A DNA stretch of 26,759 bases, from the IMG/VR virus record IMGVR_UViG_3300010883_000356, positions 1 through 26,759 of that record, one strand, 5' to 3'. The position numbers and the translations under genes are program-made. Origin of the DNA: a virus. Shown here one piece after another: positions 9,052 through 26,561 of the stretch (position 1 is the first letter of the stretch; every line of letters begins with the position of its first letter). The notes under the pieces were generated by a model. That model saw nothing but the letters and a program-made list of their open reading frames with translations, did no database searches and had not been told where the DNA came from.

Positions 9052-11226
9052 ATGGCAGAAAAAATAGTTAGCCCAGGGGTGTTTACAAGAGAGAATGATT
9101 TATCATTCCTACCAGCAGGCATTGGAGAAATAGGAGCAGCGTTAGTTGGTCCCACAGTTAAGGGTCCAGCAGGAATACCAACAGTAGTAACATCGTATGC
9201 ACAATACGTAGAAAAGTTTGGTGACACATTCCAATCAGGAAGTGATTACTACCAATACCTAACATCACATACAGCAGAGCGCTATTTGCAGTTCGGAGGT
9301 GTGTTAACGGTGGTTAGAATCACAGGTGATTCACCATTGGTAGCTACTGCTAGTGTCGAGACATTAACTCCTACAACCCCATTAAATCCAGCGACAGGAT
9401 CATTAACGTTTGGAAATAGTTTCTTCCAAGATGAAGGTGATGAATTACAGATTACAGTAGGATCAACAGAGTATAGATTTATTGCAGGTGAAACTGGAGC
9501 ACTTCCACTAGATAATGCATCTGCAGGTATATTCTTTGTAGGCACAGGATCAAGTGATGCAACAGCAATCGACGCGCTAGTAGCTAAAATTGGTGCAAGT
9601 GATGCATTAGGCATAGGTATTAAAGCTATCGACGGAGCAACATTCTTAGGTCTATCAGCTTCAGCTGCAGGTACGGTAGGTAATACCTACGCTGTACAAA
9701 CTGGATCAGGTGAAACAATAGCAACCAATACAGTAGCATTTGGTAACTCTGGAGTATTCGGTGGTGGAACAAATGTGGTAGGTACAGCTGGTACAGCACT
9801 TAAATTCCACTCACTAGCACATGGTGGTTTGTTAAACAGTATTGATACTGGTGGTGCAATGACTGAGGGTGTTAAAAACACACTCACTAATGGTACTAAA
9901 GATAACTTTAGATGGGAGATAACAGGGGTAAATAACAAAATAGGTACATTCAACGTTAACATTAGACGAGGTAATGATACATCTAATGGTAAAGTACTTC
10001 TAGAGCAGTTCAATGGCGTTAATCTAGATCCTAACTCAAGTAACTATGTTGGTAAAGCAATTGGAGACGCGTATCTCACTACAGCTGGCTCACCTTCTGA
10101 TCCATACATACAATCGAATGGAGCATACGATGCAAAATCAAACTATATAAGAGTAGAGGTGTTAAACCAGACAGTTAATTACTTAGATGAAAACGGCACT
10201 ATTAGATTAGCAGCTGCATCGGCAAGCTTGCCAGCTGCAGGCTCTGGTTCATTAGGTGGAGCATTTGGAGGAGGCTATGACGGACCTACAGCAGCTGGAC
10301 CTAAATTATTTTATGATAAGATAACAAACTTAAACAGCCAAGGGCTAGATGCAAACGATTTAGCGAATGAATTTGGAGGAGCTAAATACACAGAAGCATT
10401 AAACCTGTTAGCTAATCAAGATTTTTACGATATCAATATGATTATTGTACCAGGTGTAAATCAAAAAGATCACACCGCAGTTGTTAATAAAGCTATTGCA
10501 GTGTGTGAAACACGTGGAGACGCTATTGCAATTGTTGATCCTGTTAGATACCAAACCACTTCACTAACTACTGTAACAGACCAAGCAGATGCATATAATT
10601 CAAGCTATGCAGCAATGTACTGGCCTTGGGTACAGATAACAGACAATCAGTTAGGTAAGAATGTATGGGTACCACCATCGGTTGTAATGCCAGGTGTAAT
10701 GTCATATAATGATACTGTAGCTGCTGAGTGGTATGCACCAGCCGGCCTTAACAGAGGTGGCATAACAGCTATTAAAGCAGAGAGAAACTTAACACATACA
10801 GATAGAGACACTCTATATGAAGGTAGAATTAACCCGATCGCAACATTTCCTGGAGTAGGCGTTGTAGCATGGGGCCAGAAAACGCTCCAAAAGAGAGCTT
10901 CTGCTTTAGATAGAATTAATGTTAGAAGATTGTTAATTAACCTTAAAAAGTTCATTGCATCGACATCCAAGTACTTGGTATTTGAGCAGAACACAGTTGC
11001 AACAAGAAATAGATTCTTATCATCAGTTGTACCATACATGGAAGAAGTTCAAGCAAACCAAGGATTGTATGCATTTAAAGTTGTAATGGATACAACAAAT
11101 AACACACCGGAAGTCATCGATAGAAATATCTTAAAAGGTGATATATTCCTACAGCCTGCGAAAGCAGCTGAATTCATAGTAATCGACTTTAATGTAATGC
11201 CAACTGGTGCTACTTTTGCGGACTAA
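9052..11226 (+). CDS. 18: Contractile tail sheath protein, gp18-like
   Basis: 724 residues (T4 gp18 is 659). The N-terminus VSPGVFTRENDLS matches the sheath signature SPGVxxxExDLS. EYRFIAGETG and the loop-rich region around 120-260 correspond to the variable outer domains. The conserved C-terminal core has INPIATFPGVGVVAWGQKTL (about 593-612) followed by RASALDRINVRRLLINLKKF, which is diagnostic. The sheath polymerises round the tube and contracts to drive injection. ATG 9052 is preceded by AGGAGA. It is followed after 30 nt by the tube gene, the usual 18-19 order. Confidence 0.95.
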   Translation: MAEKIVSPGVFTRENDLSFLPAGIGEIGAALVGPTVKGPAGIPTVVTSYAQYVEKFGDTFQSGSDYYQYLTSHTAERYLQFGGVLTVVRITGDSPLVATASVETLTPTTPLNPATGSLTFGNSFFQDEGDELQITVGSTEYRFIAGETGALPLDNASAGIFFVGTGSSDATAIDALVAKIGASDALGIGIKAIDGATFLGLSASAAGTVGNTYAVQTGSGETIATNTVAFGNSGVFGGGTNVVGTAGTALKFHSLAHGGLLNSIDTGGAMTEGVKNTLTNGTKDNFRWEITGVNNKIGTFNVNIRRGNDTSNGKVLLEQFNGVNLDPNSSNYVGKAIGDAYLTTAGSPSDPYIQSNGAYDAKSNYIRVEVLNQTVNYLDENGTIRLAAASASLPAAGSGSLGGAFGGGYDGPTAAGPKLFYDKITNLNSQGLDANDLANEFGGAKYTEALNLLANQDFYDINMIIVPGVNQKDHTAVVNKAIAVCETRGDAIAIVDPVRYQTTSLTTVTDQADAYNSSYAAMYWPWVQITDNQLGKNVWVPPSVVMPGVMSYNDTVAAEWYAPAGLNRGGITAIKAERNLTHTDRDTLYEGRINPIATFPGVGVVAWGQKTLQKRASALDRINVRRLLINLKKFIASTSKYLVFEQNTVATRNRFLSSVVPYMEEVQANQGLYAFKVVMDTTNNTPEVIDRNILKGDIFLQPAKAAEFIVIDFNVMPTGATFAD

Positions 11227-11256: not shown

Positions 11257-11760
11257 ATGCCAGAATTTGAACAATATAGCCCAGAGTCATTTATGTCCGG
11301 GCCCTCGGAACTGTTTGTACCAAAAACCGCAAACAGATTCGTAATGACAGTAGGAGATATACCATCTTTCCTAATTAAGAAAGTTACACGACCAAGTGTA
11401 TCATTTGGAGAGATAGTATTAGATCACGTAAACACAAAACGAAAGCTACAAGGTAAAGCAGATTGGGGTGATGTGTCAATGACATTGTACGATCCAATTG
11501 TACCTTCAGGAGCGACATATGTAATGGATTGGATACGGTTAGGTTATCAATCAGCAACAGGTCTAGCAGGATATCCATCTGAATACAAGAAGCAAGTAAC
11601 AGTAGAGGGCTTAGATCCAGCTGGTAATATTTGTGAAAGATTCATTTTAAACGGAGCGTTTCCAATGTCTACTGAAATGGGTGAATATGATTGGTCTAGT
11701 GATCAACCATTAGAAATTACTGTTACATTGAAGTATGACTGGGCCCTTTGGGATCTATAG
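11257..11760 (+). CDS. 19: Tail tube protein, gp19-like
   Basis: 167 residues (T4 gp19 is 163). SGPSELFVPKTANRFVMTVG at the N-terminus, VTRPSVSFGEIVLDHVNTKR, and WGDVSMTLYDPI then LEITVTLKYDWALW at the end are typical of the T4 gp19 tail-tube family, which makes stacked hexameric rings around the tape measure. ATG 11257 follows a strong AGAGGAG. It lies directly after the sheath gene and 10 nt before the tandem 70-residue pair. Confidence 0.95.
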   Translation: MPEFEQYSPESFMSGPSELFVPKTANRFVMTVGDIPSFLIKKVTRPSVSFGEIVLDHVNTKRKLQGKADWGDVSMTLYDPIVPSGATYVMDWIRLGYQSATGLAGYPSEYKKQVTVEGLDPAGNICERFILNGAFPMSTEMGEYDWSSDQPLEITVTLKYDWALWDL

Positions 11761-12199: not shown

Positions 12200-12223
12200 C
12201 TTAAGTATCACATAATAATAAAG

Positions 12224-12253
12224 AAAGTTCTGGTAAACACCGGGACTTTTTTT
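12224..12253 (+). terminator. Rho-independent terminator after the sheath-tube unit
   Basis: AAAGTTCTGG (12224-12233), loop TAAACA and CCGGGACTTT (12240-12249) form a 10-bp stem with two G-U pairs, running into TTTTTTT (12247-12253). The next promoter-like element starts only 6 nt later. Confidence 0.88.
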
Positions 12254-12258
12254 ATGTA

Positions 12259-12274
12259 CTGATATTTATATATG
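12259..12274 (+). promoter_or_regulatory. Putative late promoter element before the baseplate operon
   Basis: CTGATATTTATATATG starts 40 nt before the ATG at 12299 that I take as the true start. The ATG at 12272 lies inside this element, which argues against translation starting there. Confidence 0.6.
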
Positions 12275-12298
12275 AACAAACAATTAAAGGTTTATGAC

Positions 12299-13135
12299 AT
12301 GTCAAAAGTACAGTTAACAGACGCGCAAATTAAAGCGCAGATTATCGCAAAATCACAGCAATCAAATAAAGTAGAATCACTATTTCCAACAGAGATTGTC
12401 CCACTACCATCCAAAGGGCTAGTATATCCACTAGATCACCCGTTATCCGCTGGTCAAGTGGAAATTAGATACATGACTGCCAAGGATGAAGATATTATAA
12501 CAAATCAGAATTACTTGAAGAAAGGTGTTGCATTAGATAAACTATATAATGCACTAGTAGTTGGTAATGGCTTAGGTCAAGCTGTAGATATGAATGATAT
12601 GATTCTAGGTGATAGAAGCGCTGTAATGCTAGCCGCAAGAGTACTTGGATACGGACCTGACTACACCATAACAATAACACATCCAGACACAGGGAAAGAA
12701 CTTCAAACAGCAGTGGACTTAAATGAACTAAAACCACACCCGATTGATGAATCACTATATAACAACTCACGTGAATTTGATTATACTCTCCCAATCAGTA
12801 AAAAGACCGTAACAATTAGGTTACAAACAGCGGTAGAGCAAAAGGCTATTGATAGAATAACAAGAGCTCAAGAAAAGTCTGGTATGGGCACTAAGGTTAC
12901 AACGACTGTACTTAAGCATAGTATATGTGCTATAGAAGGTGATACAGAAACAAGCACGATTGCAGAGTTTGTTGATAATCACCTACTTGCACGTGACTCA
13001 CTATCACTACGTAGCTTTATACTAGATATAACACCAGATTATGATCTCTCTATAGATGTTAATATACCGGAAGAGGATTTCTTCGAAAGAATGTCACTGC
13101 CAATTGATGTAGACTTTTTTTGGCCTAGGTCTTAA
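12299..13135 (+). CDS. 26: Baseplate hub / assembly protein, gp26-like (T4_baseplate family)
   Basis: 278 residues from ATG 12299, which has AAAGG at 12286-12290; the in-frame ATG at 12272 lies in the promoter element and has no ribosome site. LFPTEIVPLPSKGLVYPLDH, EIRYMTAKDEDIITNQNYLK and GDRSAVMLAARVLGYGPDY are the hallmarks of the family annotated in T4-like phages as baseplate hub subunit gp26 (Pfam T4_baseplate, from memory). The C-terminal half (VTIRLQTAVEQKAIDRITRA, then SIDVNIPEEDF) ends IDVDFFWPRS. A gp51-like frame opens in the +1 register at exactly this end, suggesting that a fraction of ribosomes make an extended product, as in the G/GT tail chaperones of lambda. Confidence 0.8.
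   Translation: MSKVQLTDAQIKAQIIAKSQQSNKVESLFPTEIVPLPSKGLVYPLDHPLSAGQVEIRYMTAKDEDIITNQNYLKKGVALDKLYNALVVGNGLGQAVDMNDMILGDRSAVMLAARVLGYGPDYTITITHPDTGKELQTAVDLNELKPHPIDESLYNNSREFDYTLPISKKTVTIRLQTAVEQKAIDRITRAQEKSGMGTKVTTTVLKHSICAIEGDTETSTIAEFVDNHLLARDSLSLRSFILDITPDYDLSIDVNIPEEDFFERMSLPIDVDFFWPRS
13112..13125 (+). promoter_or_regulatory. Candidate programmed +1 frameshift site
   Basis: In the gp26-like frame the codons are GAC TTT TTT TGG CCT AGG TCT TAA. Seven consecutive T (13115-13121) let the P-site Phe-tRNA on TTT (13118-13120) slip one base forward onto TTT (13119-13121) with perfect re-pairing, after which translation reads GGC CTA GGT CTT AAC into the gp51-like frame. The -1 frame meets TAG at 13126-13128. 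Not proven; a homopolymer sequencing error must be excluded. Confidence 0.55.
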
Positions 13136-13331
13136 CTATAGGGCCAATCTGCACCAAGAGCTATTTTATATACTCGAACACATGCCTGGGTTCTCATGGA
13201 CAGAGCTCTATGTTATGCCAATTGATCTACGTAGGTTTTACATCAAGTGCGTTAGCAACAAAATTACTAAAGCTAACGAACAGATTGAAGAGCAGAATAA
13301 GAGAACTAACAGTTCACGTAACACACGGTAA
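13113..13331 (+). CDS. 51: gp51-like baseplate assembly frame, probably expressed by +1 frameshift
   Basis: This open frame has no start codon of its own near its beginning. It opens after an in-frame TAG at 13110-13112 and runs to TAA at 13329-13331. Translated past the slip site it gives GLGLNYRANLHQELFYILEH, MPGFSWTELYVMPIDLRRFY and then a lysine/glutamate-rich helix. The pattern GLGLxYxxNLHxxLF, W(T/E)xxYxMPxxLRxFY and a charged helix is that of gp51-like hub-assembly proteins and of tail-chaperone C-terminal domains, in a phage position where gp51 is expected. The only internal start is ATG at 13182 (49 residues, no good Shine-Dalgarno, losing the conserved first part). I therefore infer a gp26-gp51 fusion product by frameshifting at 13115-13121. 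Confidence 0.65.
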   Translation, partial: TFFGLGLNYRANLHQELFYILEHMPGFSWTELYVMPIDLRRFYIKCVSNKITKANEQIEEQNKRTNSSRNTR

Positions 13332-13386: not shown

Positions 13387-13581
13387 ATGAGTAAAAAACA
13401 ATTAAGAGAAGGTTTGTTAGATAACGTATTTAAAGGTGTCTTAGGTGCTTACTTCGGTAGCAAGATGATTGATAAGCATGCAAGAAAGATGGCAATGGGA
13501 GACCCTGAAGTTAAAAAGGCTGTTAAATCTTTCAAAGATGAGTTAGCTAACTTTGACGCTATTATGGCTAAGTACGATTAA
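13387..13581 (+). CDS. Small unknown protein between gp51-like frame and tape measure
   Basis: 64 residues. The N-terminal half has a small glycine-containing hydrophobic stretch (VFKGVLGAYFGSKMI) and the C-terminal half is a charged helix (DPEVKKAVKSFKDELANFDA). ATG 13387 has GGAG at 13375-13378. It lies 13 nt before the tape measure. Small helical proteins of this style are found at this site in other T4-like marine phages as far as I recall, but I know of no function. A tape-measure partner or minor hub protein is possible. Confidence 0.65.
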   Translation: MSKKQLREGLLDNVFKGVLGAYFGSKMIDKHARKMAMGDPEVKKAVKSFKDELANFDAIMAKYD

Positions 13582-13594
13582 ATAAGGAACACCT

Positions 13595-15424
13595 ATGGCA
13601 GACTCAATTAAACAGTTAGAACAAGCACTCGCGTTAAGGCAAAGTGCACTTGCTATCGAGGAGAAAATGCTCGACGCTATGAGTCATTACGATGACGCGT
13701 CCAAACAAAAGATTGGTCAACAAAACAAAGTAAACGAATTAAAGCTGGTCGAAGAAAAGTTAGGTAATAAACTTTTAAAAATCGAAATCGCGCTAGAGAA
13801 GGCAGGTAAAGGACGGGCTGCTGTAATGAAGACTATGACTCTTCTAGGCGGTACTTTACTTGGTAGTATGGATAAACTCCGTGATCTATCAAAACAATAT
13901 AGTGCAGACGTTAAAGCCACAGGTGCATCACTAGGTATAAACGTGAACGAAGCACGTAAGATGAATAAAGAGATCATGGGGCAGATCAAGGGTGAGAAGA
14001 TGTTCCAAACTACCATGGGGTCTGTGGTAGATATGCAAAATGAACTTAATGATGCATACGGAGGGTCGGTAAAATTCTCAGCCGAGACAGCTGTTAACAT
14101 GGACATCGCTGCTTCGAAGCTAGGTGTATCTAACGCTAGCGCCGCAAGCTTCTCGAAATTAATGTTCTTATCAGGTGAAGCATCTGGTGAAGTTGCAATG
14201 AACACATTAGCTTCTGTAAAATCACTTTCCGATGCTTCAGGTGTTAAGTTCAGCGCAGTAATGAAAGACATCGCGGCATCCGGTAAAGAGATGATGTCAT
14301 ACTTCGGAGGTTCAGCTACAGAGATTGCAATCATGGCAGTTAAAGCTCGTAAGTTAGGATTTGAGCTATCAGATATGAAGAGCACTTCAGAAGCTCTACT
14401 AGATGTCGAGGGTAGAATTGAAAAGCAAATGTCCTTGAATATGCTAACCGGTAAAAATATCAATCTAGATAAAGCAACACAGCTAACGCTTGAGGGTGAT
14501 ATGATCGGAGCTCAGAAAGAGGTACTAGCTCAGCTAGGTGATGTTTCACAAATGAATATCATGGAGAGAAAACTAGCATCGGACATGCTAGGTATGGATG
14601 TAATGAAGATAGCAAACGCAGGTGAATTAGCTAAACAAGCTGACGAATCGGCCGCGGCAGCAGCTGAGATATTAAGAGTAGAAGCAGAAATCCGCGCTGG
14701 CCAGGTGGAAGAGTTTAAACAGAAGCAATTGGATCGCGTAGACGCTTTAGATAAGGAAACCGCGCTAGCAGCATTCGCTGAAAACGCAGAGAAAAAGTTA
14801 GCTGCAAAGCTCATCGCGGATGAAAAGGGAAACAATCTCGCCATGATCCTGCAAGGTATTCAGACAGCAATAGCTGTTGTATCAGCAGCAGCAGCTGCAT
14901 CTTCTGCACTTAAAGAAGCTACAGAGAAGAGATCACTTGGACATTCAATAAAAGCTCTTCCAAAATTAATCGCCGGTGGAATTGCGACAATGGCTAAGGC
15001 TGTCGCAGGCATTTTTGCAGGGATGGCGTCACTTGGCCCATTTGGTATACCATTAGCAATAGCAGGAATCGCGAGCATGGTCGGGCTTGCATCCAAAGCT
15101 AAGGGTATGATAATGAATGATGGTATAATCGATCCCAAAAAAGGAATGGTCGTTAATGGACCAGAAGGATCGATTCAGCTGAATAAGAAAGATTCTATTA
15201 TTGCAGGCACTGATCTAGCCGGTGGGGGTAAATCCGGAAAGGATCAACCATCACTAAATACCCCAAATGCAGGGATGAAGGGGGAAGGTGGAATGGATAT
15301 AGGTCCATTAGTGAAGAAGATCGACGAACTTATTGCAGCTGTACGTCAGAGTAGAGTACTAAATGTAGATGGGTATCAATTAAACGAGGTGTTACATCTA
15401 GAAAAAACACCATCAGGAGTATAA
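13595..15424 (+). CDS. 29: Tail tape measure / hub protein, gp29-like
   Basis: 609 residues (T4 gp29 is 590). The N-terminal ~75 residues are coiled coil, followed by a long, mostly helical body with repeated Ala/Met/Lys-rich segments. About residues 415-505 form a hydrophobic, alanine- and glycine-rich stretch (IQTAIAVVSAAAAASSAL, LIAGGIATMAKAVAGIFAGM, GIPLAIAGIASMVGL), as tape measures have for membrane interaction at injection. The tail end GIIDPKKGMVVNGPEGSIQL with DSIIAGTDL is a motif I recognise from tape measures of T4-like marine phages. It fixes tail length and is ejected through the tube. It precedes the tube-cap gene by one base. Confidence 0.87.
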   Translation: MADSIKQLEQALALRQSALAIEEKMLDAMSHYDDASKQKIGQQNKVNELKLVEEKLGNKLLKIEIALEKAGKGRAAVMKTMTLLGGTLLGSMDKLRDLSKQYSADVKATGASLGINVNEARKMNKEIMGQIKGEKMFQTTMGSVVDMQNELNDAYGGSVKFSAETAVNMDIAASKLGVSNASAASFSKLMFLSGEASGEVAMNTLASVKSLSDASGVKFSAVMKDIAASGKEMMSYFGGSATEIAIMAVKARKLGFELSDMKSTSEALLDVEGRIEKQMSLNMLTGKNINLDKATQLTLEGDMIGAQKEVLAQLGDVSQMNIMERKLASDMLGMDVMKIANAGELAKQADESAAAAAEILRVEAEIRAGQVEEFKQKQLDRVDALDKETALAAFAENAEKKLAAKLIADEKGNNLAMILQGIQTAIAVVSAAAAASSALKEATEKRSLGHSIKALPKLIAGGIATMAKAVAGIFAGMASLGPFGIPLAIAGIASMVGLASKAKGMIMNDGIIDPKKGMVVNGPEGSIQLNKKDSIIAGTDLAGGGKSGKDQPSLNTPNAGMKGEGGMDIGPLVKKIDELIAAVRQSRVLNVDGYQLNEVLHLEKTPSGV

Positions 15425-22059: not shown

Positions 22060-23325
22060 ATGGTAGTAGATAGTGAAGATATATTATCTGCGCTCAAGAA
22101 AGATTACGCGAGCTCTGATTCTATAGTAATTCCTATATATAGTGATATTCGTAAACATCGAGTTAATAATCGAGTATCTCTATTATATATTTATATTATA
22201 GATACCAGTAAGGAGTATGTAATACTTATCAATCACTCTGATAAGGTATTCTCTGTAGATGAGCTGCAGTTTATAAATAACGATAAGTGCAAATACACGT
22301 ACAGTTCAGGTATAACAAACTCTATAAATATAGATGCTCTCTACTATATGAGTAATTTACATAATATTAAAACGGAAGAGATACACACTCCAGCGCATAC
22401 GCACTTCTATAATAAGTATTGGAGGTTGGATAATATAAACGACATAATTCCAGTGTTAAAGCATGTAGAGTATTGTGGTAAGGTTCGTGATATTGTGTTA
22501 GACATAAGGGAAAATAGGTCTATGCAAGGATTTGATGAGTATAATAGACAAGTAATACCAGCATTCAAATCTATAGAAAATAATGGATTGGCCACTAACA
22601 GTGGAGTGGAGTACACTAAATATAATCTATGGTCAATTACAGGAAGGCCTAGCAATGCATTCGGAGGTATAAACTACGCAGCATTAAAGAAGGATGACGG
22701 CACTCGTGGGCGATTTGTAAGTAGATTTGATAAAGGTAAGTTGGTTGAGTTTGATTTCGATGCATACCATCTGCGACTAATTGCTAAAATGATTAACTAT
22801 GAATTGCCTAACACCTCAATACATACATACTTAGGAAAATACTATTTTGGCAAAGATCTGATAACAGTTGATGAGTATAACGAATCAAAATCTGTAACAT
22901 TTAAAATATTGTATGGTGGAGTGCCTAAAGAGTTTGAGAATATACCATTCTTTGGTAAAGTTAAACAGCACATTTTTGAAGTCTGGGATATTTATAAGCG
23001 TAAAGGTTATGTAGAAACACCTATATTTAAAAGAAGGCTGTATGCTGAGAATCTTAAGGATAGGGATATAAAACCTCAAACATTGTTTAACTATATGATC
23101 CAAGCTATGGAAACAGAGCAGAATGTTCTTATAATTAACGAAATACAGGAGATGTTAAAAGAGTATCAAACTAAATTAGTGTTATATACGTATGATGCAC
23201 TGCTATTCGATCTACATCCAGATGAAACCGACCTGTTGAATATGATAAAGGAAAAAATGATTTATCCAATAAAATGTACCACGGGACATAATTATAATAA
23301 AATGGAAGCCTACAATTTTGAATAG
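22060..23325 (+). CDS. Compact family-A (Pol I-like) DNA polymerase, divergent
   Basis: 421 residues. The C-terminal ~240 carry the family-A palm and fingers. YNLWSITGRPSNAFGGINYA (188-207) matches the T-x-x-G-R-x-S...N region. Motif A is LVEFDFDAYHLRLIA with D232 as catalytic Asp. Motif B is KSVTFKILYGG, keeping K277, F281, Y285 and G286 of the Klenow K-F-Y-G set. KPQTLFNYMIQAMETEQNVL (338-357) is the conserved helix, and motif C is LYTYDALLFDL with D379. The Klenow residues E710, R754, H881 and E883 are replaced here by H237, Y273, Y378 and A380. The N-terminal ~170 residues are short and have no clear DEDD exonuclease motifs. AAAGG (22049-22053) precedes the ATG. A polymerase among late tail genes is unexpected; T4 uses family B. 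Replication, repair or gap-filling roles are all open. Confidence 0.85.
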   Translation: MVVDSEDILSALKKDYASSDSIVIPIYSDIRKHRVNNRVSLLYIYIIDTSKEYVILINHSDKVFSVDELQFINNDKCKYTYSSGITNSINIDALYYMSNLHNIKTEEIHTPAHTHFYNKYWRLDNINDIIPVLKHVEYCGKVRDIVLDIRENRSMQGFDEYNRQVIPAFKSIENNGLATNSGVEYTKYNLWSITGRPSNAFGGINYAALKKDDGTRGRFVSRFDKGKLVEFDFDAYHLRLIAKMINYELPNTSIHTYLGKYYFGKDLITVDEYNESKSVTFKILYGGVPKEFENIPFFGKVKQHIFEVWDIYKRKGYVETPIFKRRLYAENLKDRDIKPQTLFNYMIQAMETEQNVLIINEIQEMLKEYQTKLVLYTYDALLFDLHPDETDLLNMIKEKMIYPIKCTTGHNYNKMEAYNFE

Positions 23326-26306: not shown

Positions 26307-26380
26307 GGACCAGTAGCTCAGCTGGATAGAGCACCTCCCTTCTAAGGAGGCGGCCAAAGGTTCGAATCCTTTCTGGTTCA
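26307..26380 (+). tRNA. tRNA-Arg (anticodon UCU)
   Basis: Complete cloverleaf. Acceptor GGACCAG pairs with CTGGTTC (26373-26379), discriminator A at 26380. Anticodon stem CCTCC/GGAGG with loop CTTCTAA, so the anticodon is TCT (26341-26343), reading AGA. The T arm is AAAGG-TTCGAAT-CCTTT. CCA is not encoded. AGA is a common arginine codon in this AT-rich genome, which fits codon supplementation. Confidence 0.95.
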
Positions 26381-26386
26381 CAATAT

Positions 26387-26461
26387 GGTGATTATAGCTC
26401 AATTGGTTAGAGCGCTGGTTTGTGGTACCAGAGGTTGTGAGTTCAATTCTCACTAGTCACC
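26387..26461 (+). tRNA. tRNA-His (anticodon GUG)
   Basis: Anticodon stem CTGGT/ACCAG with loop TTGTGGT gives anticodon GTG. The extra 5' G (26387, G-1) can pair with C73 (26461), the identity element special to tRNA-His. The acceptor then reads GTGATTA against TAGTCAC. CCA is not encoded. It lies 6 nt after tRNA-Arg, so the cluster is probably one transcript. Confidence 0.94.
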
Positions 26462-26467
26462 CAAATA

Positions 26468-26541
26468 GATTTGGTAGCTCAGCTGGTTAGAGCATCTCAC
26501 TTTTAATGAGAGGGTCCTGGGTTCGAGTCCCAGCCAGATCA
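26468..26541 (+). tRNA. tRNA-Lys (anticodon UUU)
   Basis: Acceptor GATTTGG pairs with CCAGATC (26534-26540), discriminator A at 26541. Anticodon stem TCTCA/TGAGA with loop CTTTTAA gives anticodon TTT, reading AAA/AAG. The T arm is CTGGG-TTCGAGT-CCCAG. No encoded CCA. It lies 6 nt after tRNA-His. Confidence 0.94.
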
Positions 26542-26561
26542 CTAATTTTAAAAAAGGTAAT

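Follow-up and report, generated by a model that had tools for sequence, protein, structure and literature searches.

Comparative evidence for a probable programmed +1 ribosomal frameshift in a phage tail assembly chaperone gene of the T4 gp26/gp51 family

Comparison of a 26.8-kb virus fragment (IMG/VR record IMGVR_UViG_3300010883_000356, positions 1 to 26,759; the whole of this stretch is referred to here as the window) with its relatives indicates that it very probably carries a tail assembly chaperone gene of the T4 gp26/gp51 family, in which a programmed +1 ribosomal frameshift gives rise to a short and a long form of the protein. The parts of the gene are as follows.

12272..13135, + strand: gp26-like ORF, the candidate short tail assembly chaperone (TAC-N), 287 amino acids (ORF listing, PF12322, PHROG_150, AlphaFold model)
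13115..13126, + strand: putative slip site TTT TTT TGG CCT, conserved among the junctions of relatives
13133-13135, + strand: TAA stop codon of the gp26-like ORF (frame 0)
13113..13331, + strand: C-terminal (gp51-type, TAC-C) domain in the +1 frame (open frame; aligned in 27-30 relatives; homologous to a domain encoded elsewhere in the -1 frame)

The reading frames, the slip site and its conservation, the homology of both parts and the gene order can be read from the sequences themselves, and from them we infer slippage in vivo, its frequency and a function as a chaperone. The majority of ribosomes would terminate at 13133 and release the gp26-like short form (TAC-N). In a minority, the peptidyl-tRNA-Phe on UUU followed by a pyrimidine (UUU U in this case) would slip one base forward and re-pair with UUU or UUC, after which translation would resume at GGC CTA in the frame 13113-13331. 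The product of such a slip, the long form (TAC-NC), would be the equivalent of T4 gp51 and of lambda gpGT. As in lambda, both forms would act as chaperones, jointly coating the tape measure protein and recruiting subunits of the tail tube.

The run of seven T residues (T7) occupies 13115-13121, where frame 0 reads GAC TTT TTT TGG CCT AGG TCT TAA; the +1 frame starts TFFGLGLNYRANLHQELF and translates as TFF GLGLNYRANLHQELFYILEHMPGFSWTELYVMPIDLRRFYIKC.... The initial annotation of this DNA, made from the sequence alone, had described a gp26-like end followed by an open +1 frame at 13113-13331, and both were correct, although the start that it gave for the region, 13041, is internal to a gp26-like ORF that extends over 12272-13135. 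Its observation that the +1 frame has no usable start at its head was also borne out, the first ATG, GTG or TTG in the +1 frame of the window being the ATG at 13182 (MPGFSW), well within the conserved domain. The -1 frame of the window is closed by a TAG two codons past the T run, and the long product could therefore be reached only through a +1 (or a -2) shift. A -1-type heptamer (X XXY YYZ) with an open -1 frame was not found at this site, which reads C TTT TTT T.

A protein search with the gp26-like ORF gave 585 relatives, of which the best 80 of the 585 were used, and later searches added more; the conservation counts below refer to 101 distinct 48-nt junctions of the +1 type. The relatives came from many separate samples and also included GTDB MAG contigs, and the same layout was present in the isolates Flavobacterium phage immuto, Microcystis phage Mel-JY01, Bacillus SP-15, Listeria LIS04 and Streptococcus GXN1. 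A frameshift annotation was absent from the records of all these relatives, and a megablast search of the window against phage records gave no match. The gp51-type domain lay in the +1 frame at every readable locus of the window's clade; the automated frame call was undecided for the window, its near-twin L002 and one cut-off locus, solely because the -1 frame happened to be open as well or the contig ended. All 101 junctions had, at the end of gp26, a frame-0 TTT with T or C as the next base (TTT-Y). The exact sequence TTTTTTTGGCCT was shared by 61 of them (TTT TTT TGG CCT), despite protein identity down to about 37%; a further 27 had TTT CTT TGG CCT, three had TTT CTA TGG CCT, two had TTC TTT TGG CCT and the remainder were single variants. 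Of the T run and the frame offset, whose conservation the initial annotation had proposed as a check, the offset was upheld, but the shared requirement is TTT-Y and not the T7 run. Among representatives of the two commonest types of site, every Phe codon at the site was TTT, although TTC made up 26% of the Phe codons in the rest of the genes (p about 6e-8, without correction for the tree), and at the protein level F, G, MP and R of the C-domain were near-invariant. Such an arrangement is far beyond what could arise by chance, and the comparative evidence shows what is seen in G/GT genes: an overlapping second ORF, lacking its own start, with a conserved frameshift entry. In the T7 junctions either of two UUU codons could slip, and in the CTA TGG junctions the first codon only, and lineages may therefore differ in where the slip takes place. 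For annotation of these phages the rule would be to look for TTT-Y near the gp26 stop and to read the long frame at +1.

Homopolymers are prone to error, and six T residues in place of seven would unite both frames, such that the true gene might be a single fused ORF obscured by a sequencing or assembly error. The likelihood of this is practically negligible, as the offset is the same across 101 distinct junctions, taken from many samples and from isolates, and 27 of these junctions carry TTTCTTTGG, which has no run of more than three T. Runs of six or nine T placing both parts in one frame, which the initial annotation had named as the finding that would overturn it, never occurred in the relatives. 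The junctions without a long T run, about a third of the 101, argue not only against a miscounted homopolymer but also against transcriptional slippage and a -2 shift. If the polymerase were to slip at the T7 run and delete one U in some mRNAs, straight read-through would give the long form, and the presence of the run in the window and in 61 of the 101 junctions is what this idea would predict. It is nevertheless very unlikely, since the frame relation is unchanged in the third or so of junctions that lack T7 (TTT CTT TGG, TTT CTA TGG, TTC TTT TGG); a run of seven is also short for polymerase slippage. Slippage by -2 would arrive in the same frame as +1 and give a product one residue longer, and it is reportedly used in the tail chaperone gene of phage Mu. 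Here it appears exceedingly improbable, because at TTT CTT TGG, TTC TTT TGG and TTT CTA TTC it would unpair both tRNAs, whereas a +1 shift keeps tRNA-Phe on UUY in every junction.

The gp51-type domain might instead be a separate small protein, made by internal initiation or coupled reinitiation; it is annotated as such in Mel-JY01 (WWT39326.1), and the annotated start of cyanophage gp51 is an ATG immediately past the gp26 stop. However, no conserved start was found in the +1 clade, 74 of the 101 junctions lacking any ATG, GTG or TTG in the +1 frame between -30 and +18 relative to the gp26 stop, and so the second finding that could have overturned the original proposal, a conserved independent start for the gp51-like gene, was likewise not seen. 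As the conserved region also begins at the slip site, and as T4 encodes a covalent fusion, we consider a separate protein highly improbable and retain a +1 ribosomal frameshift as the preferred explanation.

The short ORF matched PF12322 at its cut-off (24.5 bits, 2.5e-5) and PHROG_150 (3.1e-8), and the short-form profile matched that of the -1 clade, described below, with 1.5e-24. T4 gp26 (8.8e-64) and T4 gp51 (3.9e-52) are both members of PF12322/PHROG_150 and are therefore paralogues, gp51 consisting of a gp26-like domain and a C-terminal extension that is matched by PHROG_634. The +1 domain of the window had no direct PHROG match, and the T4 gp51 extension gave no significant match to the +1 set alone. 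When the +1 and -1 extensions were compared by hhalign they aligned with 94.9% and 4.6e-8, Phe-Phe against Phe-Phe, and the -1 domains matched both PHROG_634 and T4 gp51 (1.7e-6 for the T4 gp51 extension against the -1 set). On these profile comparisons, the +1 domain is a homologue of the extension encoded in the -1 frame by cyanophages and Straboviridae, and the T4 gp51 extension is, via the -1 family, probably homologous to the +1 C-domain. The earlier designation of the domain as gp51-like applies to the C-terminal extension alone, since gp51 is a whole gp26 paralogue plus the extension. The label of baseplate proteins was less apt, as gp26/gp51-type proteins are better regarded as chaperones of the tape measure than as structural parts of the baseplate. 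The AlphaFold model of the short form (pLDDT 91.8) is suggestive of a chaperone-like fold, its top two matches in the PDB being the HK97 tail assembly chaperone 2OB9 with Foldseek E values of 0.27 and 0.40, neither of them significant alone. The C-domain was modelled as three helices, for which no fold match was obtained in the PDB.

The -1 arrangement was seen in cyanophage P-SSM5, Vibrio phage VmeM-32, Aeromonas phiAS5 and Rhizobium LG08, whose extension lies in the -1 frame behind gp26 at a T TTT TTC or T TTT TTT site, and the outgroup site reads T TTT TTC/T in 57 of 57. At homologous Phe-Phe codons, then, the shift is -1 in cyanophages, Straboviridae and a sister group (L254), and +1 in the window's clade. 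In a tree of 53 gp26-type proteins, with long branches and an uncertain root, a single branch with 95/84 support, recovered in 94% of bootstrap trees, set all 39 rows of the +1 type apart; the -1 members, including L254, lay outside this group, and the two genes of T4 were found among them. An alternative tree joining L254 with SP-15/LIS04/GXN1 was not rejected (AU p 0.25), and therefore one or two changes of direction are possible, with a single switch implied by the best tree. A search for the sister group starting from LR756508 returned nothing. The +1 direction looks new for the gp26/gp51 family: no report of it was found in a literature search that covered few subscription papers. As a separate observation, cyanophage-type loci (e.g. 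L089, Prochlorococcus phage P-SSM5, 3688-3700) have a conserved ATG in the -1 frame after the gp26 stop (TAA gt ATG), and reinitiation at this codon could add to their -1 frameshift.

As to RNA context, the -1 set had more downstream structure than its synonymous shuffles, with a mean z of -3.3 and values below -1.65 in 11 of 12, and loci of the cyanophage type had a Shine-Dalgarno-like GAG GGN 10-15 nt upstream in 51 of 54 cases, GAG accounting for 26% of Glu codons elsewhere. For the +1 set overall, downstream structure was not above control (mean z -0.58 vs -0.54) and was seen only in the window's subclade and a few other members; a Shine-Dalgarno-like motif upstream of the site was absent in most, with none in the 20 nt upstream of the site in the window. 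In 15 of 39 representatives of the +1 type, the 24 nt directly before the slip codon had a stronger fold than their synonymous versions (p<0.05), compared with 0-6 of 39 at other positions, and the test repeated on 18 later-fetched loci gave 10 of 18, compared with 1-2 of 18 elsewhere, the statistics in both cases ignoring shared ancestry. Both sides of this upstream stem had changed between relatives (CCGTC/GACGG in L038, CGGTC/GACCG in L023). The elements seen in the window were as follows.

13091..13110, + strand: weak upstream stem ATGTCA (13091-13096) / TGATGT (13105-13110), ending 4 nt before the slip codons (folding tests)
13128..13145, + strand: downstream stem-loop GGTCTTA (13128-13134), loop ACTA, TAGGGCC (13139-13145) (covariation, 7 relatives)

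The upstream stem is weak in the window (-2.2 kcal/mol, not significant), has 8 bp in L002 (91% identical) and is strong in many other +1 relatives. The downstream 7-bp stem-loop starts 4 nt past the TGG codon and holds the frame-0 stop in its 5' arm and loop. In 7 relatives from the window's subclade, 95.9% of cells were paired, against at most 57% in slid versions, and three pairs had changed on both sides; in the window's own sequence an overlapping alternative fold was slightly favoured over it by energy. On 70S ribosomes, engineered hairpins just upstream (E-site) stimulate +1 and attenuate -1 frameshifting, and downstream structure does the reverse (PMC6321510). We hypothesise that slippage is stimulated by the upstream hairpin or by the downstream stem-loop. 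A broader proposal, for and against which we would place about equal weight, is that one homologous chaperone family switched its direction of frameshifting while keeping the codons used, and that the RNA context altered together with the direction, the upstream hairpin of the +1 members being a natural counterpart of the engineered E-site hairpin. The family offers a natural comparison of -1 and +1 shifts for the same protein pair at the same codons, in which the roles of the upstream hairpin, downstream structure and Shine-Dalgarno motif in the direction of slippage become directly testable.

Vladimirov, Gautam and Davidson reportedly described T4 gp26 and gp51 as two chaperone forms, with frameshifting in other T4-like groups. 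According to the PRFect paper (PMC10885494, with reference to Vladimirov et al. 2022, doi 10.1016/j.virol.2021.11.003), one short gene and one long fusion gene take the place of a frameshift in some T4-like phages, and a second paper (PMC12846349, with the same reference) describes poly-T sequences as established -1 signals of the TAC-N genes in T4-like phages. It follows from these publications that the equivalence of gp26/gp51 with G/GT, which the initial annotation had correctly suggested, was already known and is not a new idea. The T4-like tail assembly chaperones share with the present gene the gp26/gp51 family, a short and a long form, a position before the tape measure gene and a poly-T slip site; they differ in that their signals are -1 (PMC12846349), against +1 and another RNA context here. 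T4 itself has a homologous N domain (PF12322), and a C extension probably homologous through the -1 family, but makes its two forms from two separate convergent genes with no frameshift. Lambda gpG/gpGT uses a -1 shift on another slippery heptamer. The G/GT analogue of the haloarchaeal virus HSTV-2 is a likely +1 case (review PMC5009743) and resembles the present one in having a +1 shift in a tail gene; Listeria phage PSA also uses +1, but in capsid and tail-shaft genes and on Pro CCC codons. The YUU-U forward slip of Escherichia coli prfB (RF2; CUU UGA) is similar, and members with TTT CTT TGG contain CUU-U, but the window has no stop codon in the A site (the next codon is TGG) and no adjacent Shine-Dalgarno motif, and many members have a hairpin there. 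A prfB-type +1 site was consequently rejected for the window, with no Shine-Dalgarno-like motif in the 20 nt upstream and TGG following. On our reading, the rule of G/GT chaperones would also hold for a large, unannotated group of phages with contractile tails.

The surrounding genes of the window were assigned as follows.

9052..11226, + strand: tail sheath (PF04984; PHROG_23, 1.3e-83)
11257..11760, + strand: tail tube protein (PHROG_4542, 2.6e-24)
13387..13581, + strand: small ORF of 64 amino acids between the chaperone and tape measure genes (ORF listing)
13595..15424, + strand: tape measure protein candidate, 609 amino acids, the expected client of the chaperone (same-position genes of relatives)

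The gene order is thus tube, chaperone, small ORF and tape measure, which is the position of G/GT. The 609-residue candidate matched the gene at the corresponding place in Mel-JY01 (3.6e-14) and in immuto (1.2e-11), the latter annotated as tape measure, and the small ORF had no family match passing a cut-off in Pfam or PHROG. No Rho-independent terminator or promoter that matters was found at the junction. Just upstream of the gp26-like gene (12222-12253), an 11-bp stem (AAAGTTCTGGT/ACCGGGACTTT) running into a T7 run was noticed by eye; it resembles an intrinsic terminator that would separate the gp26-like gene from the tube gene, and it is absent from the pattern-scan list. Elsewhere in the window, a DNA polymerase A-type ORF of 421 amino acids (22060-23325; residues 214-400 match PF00476) adjoins the structural genes, and three consecutive tRNA genes, Arg(tct), His(gtg) and Lys(ttt), lie at 26307-26542. 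Finally, the gp26-type ORFs of L077, L078, L080 and L081 (e.g. L077:5400) were intact but for an in-frame TGA about midway, where relatives have Tyr or Ala, and the gene ended in TAG or TAA; these are probably phages in which TGA is reassigned.
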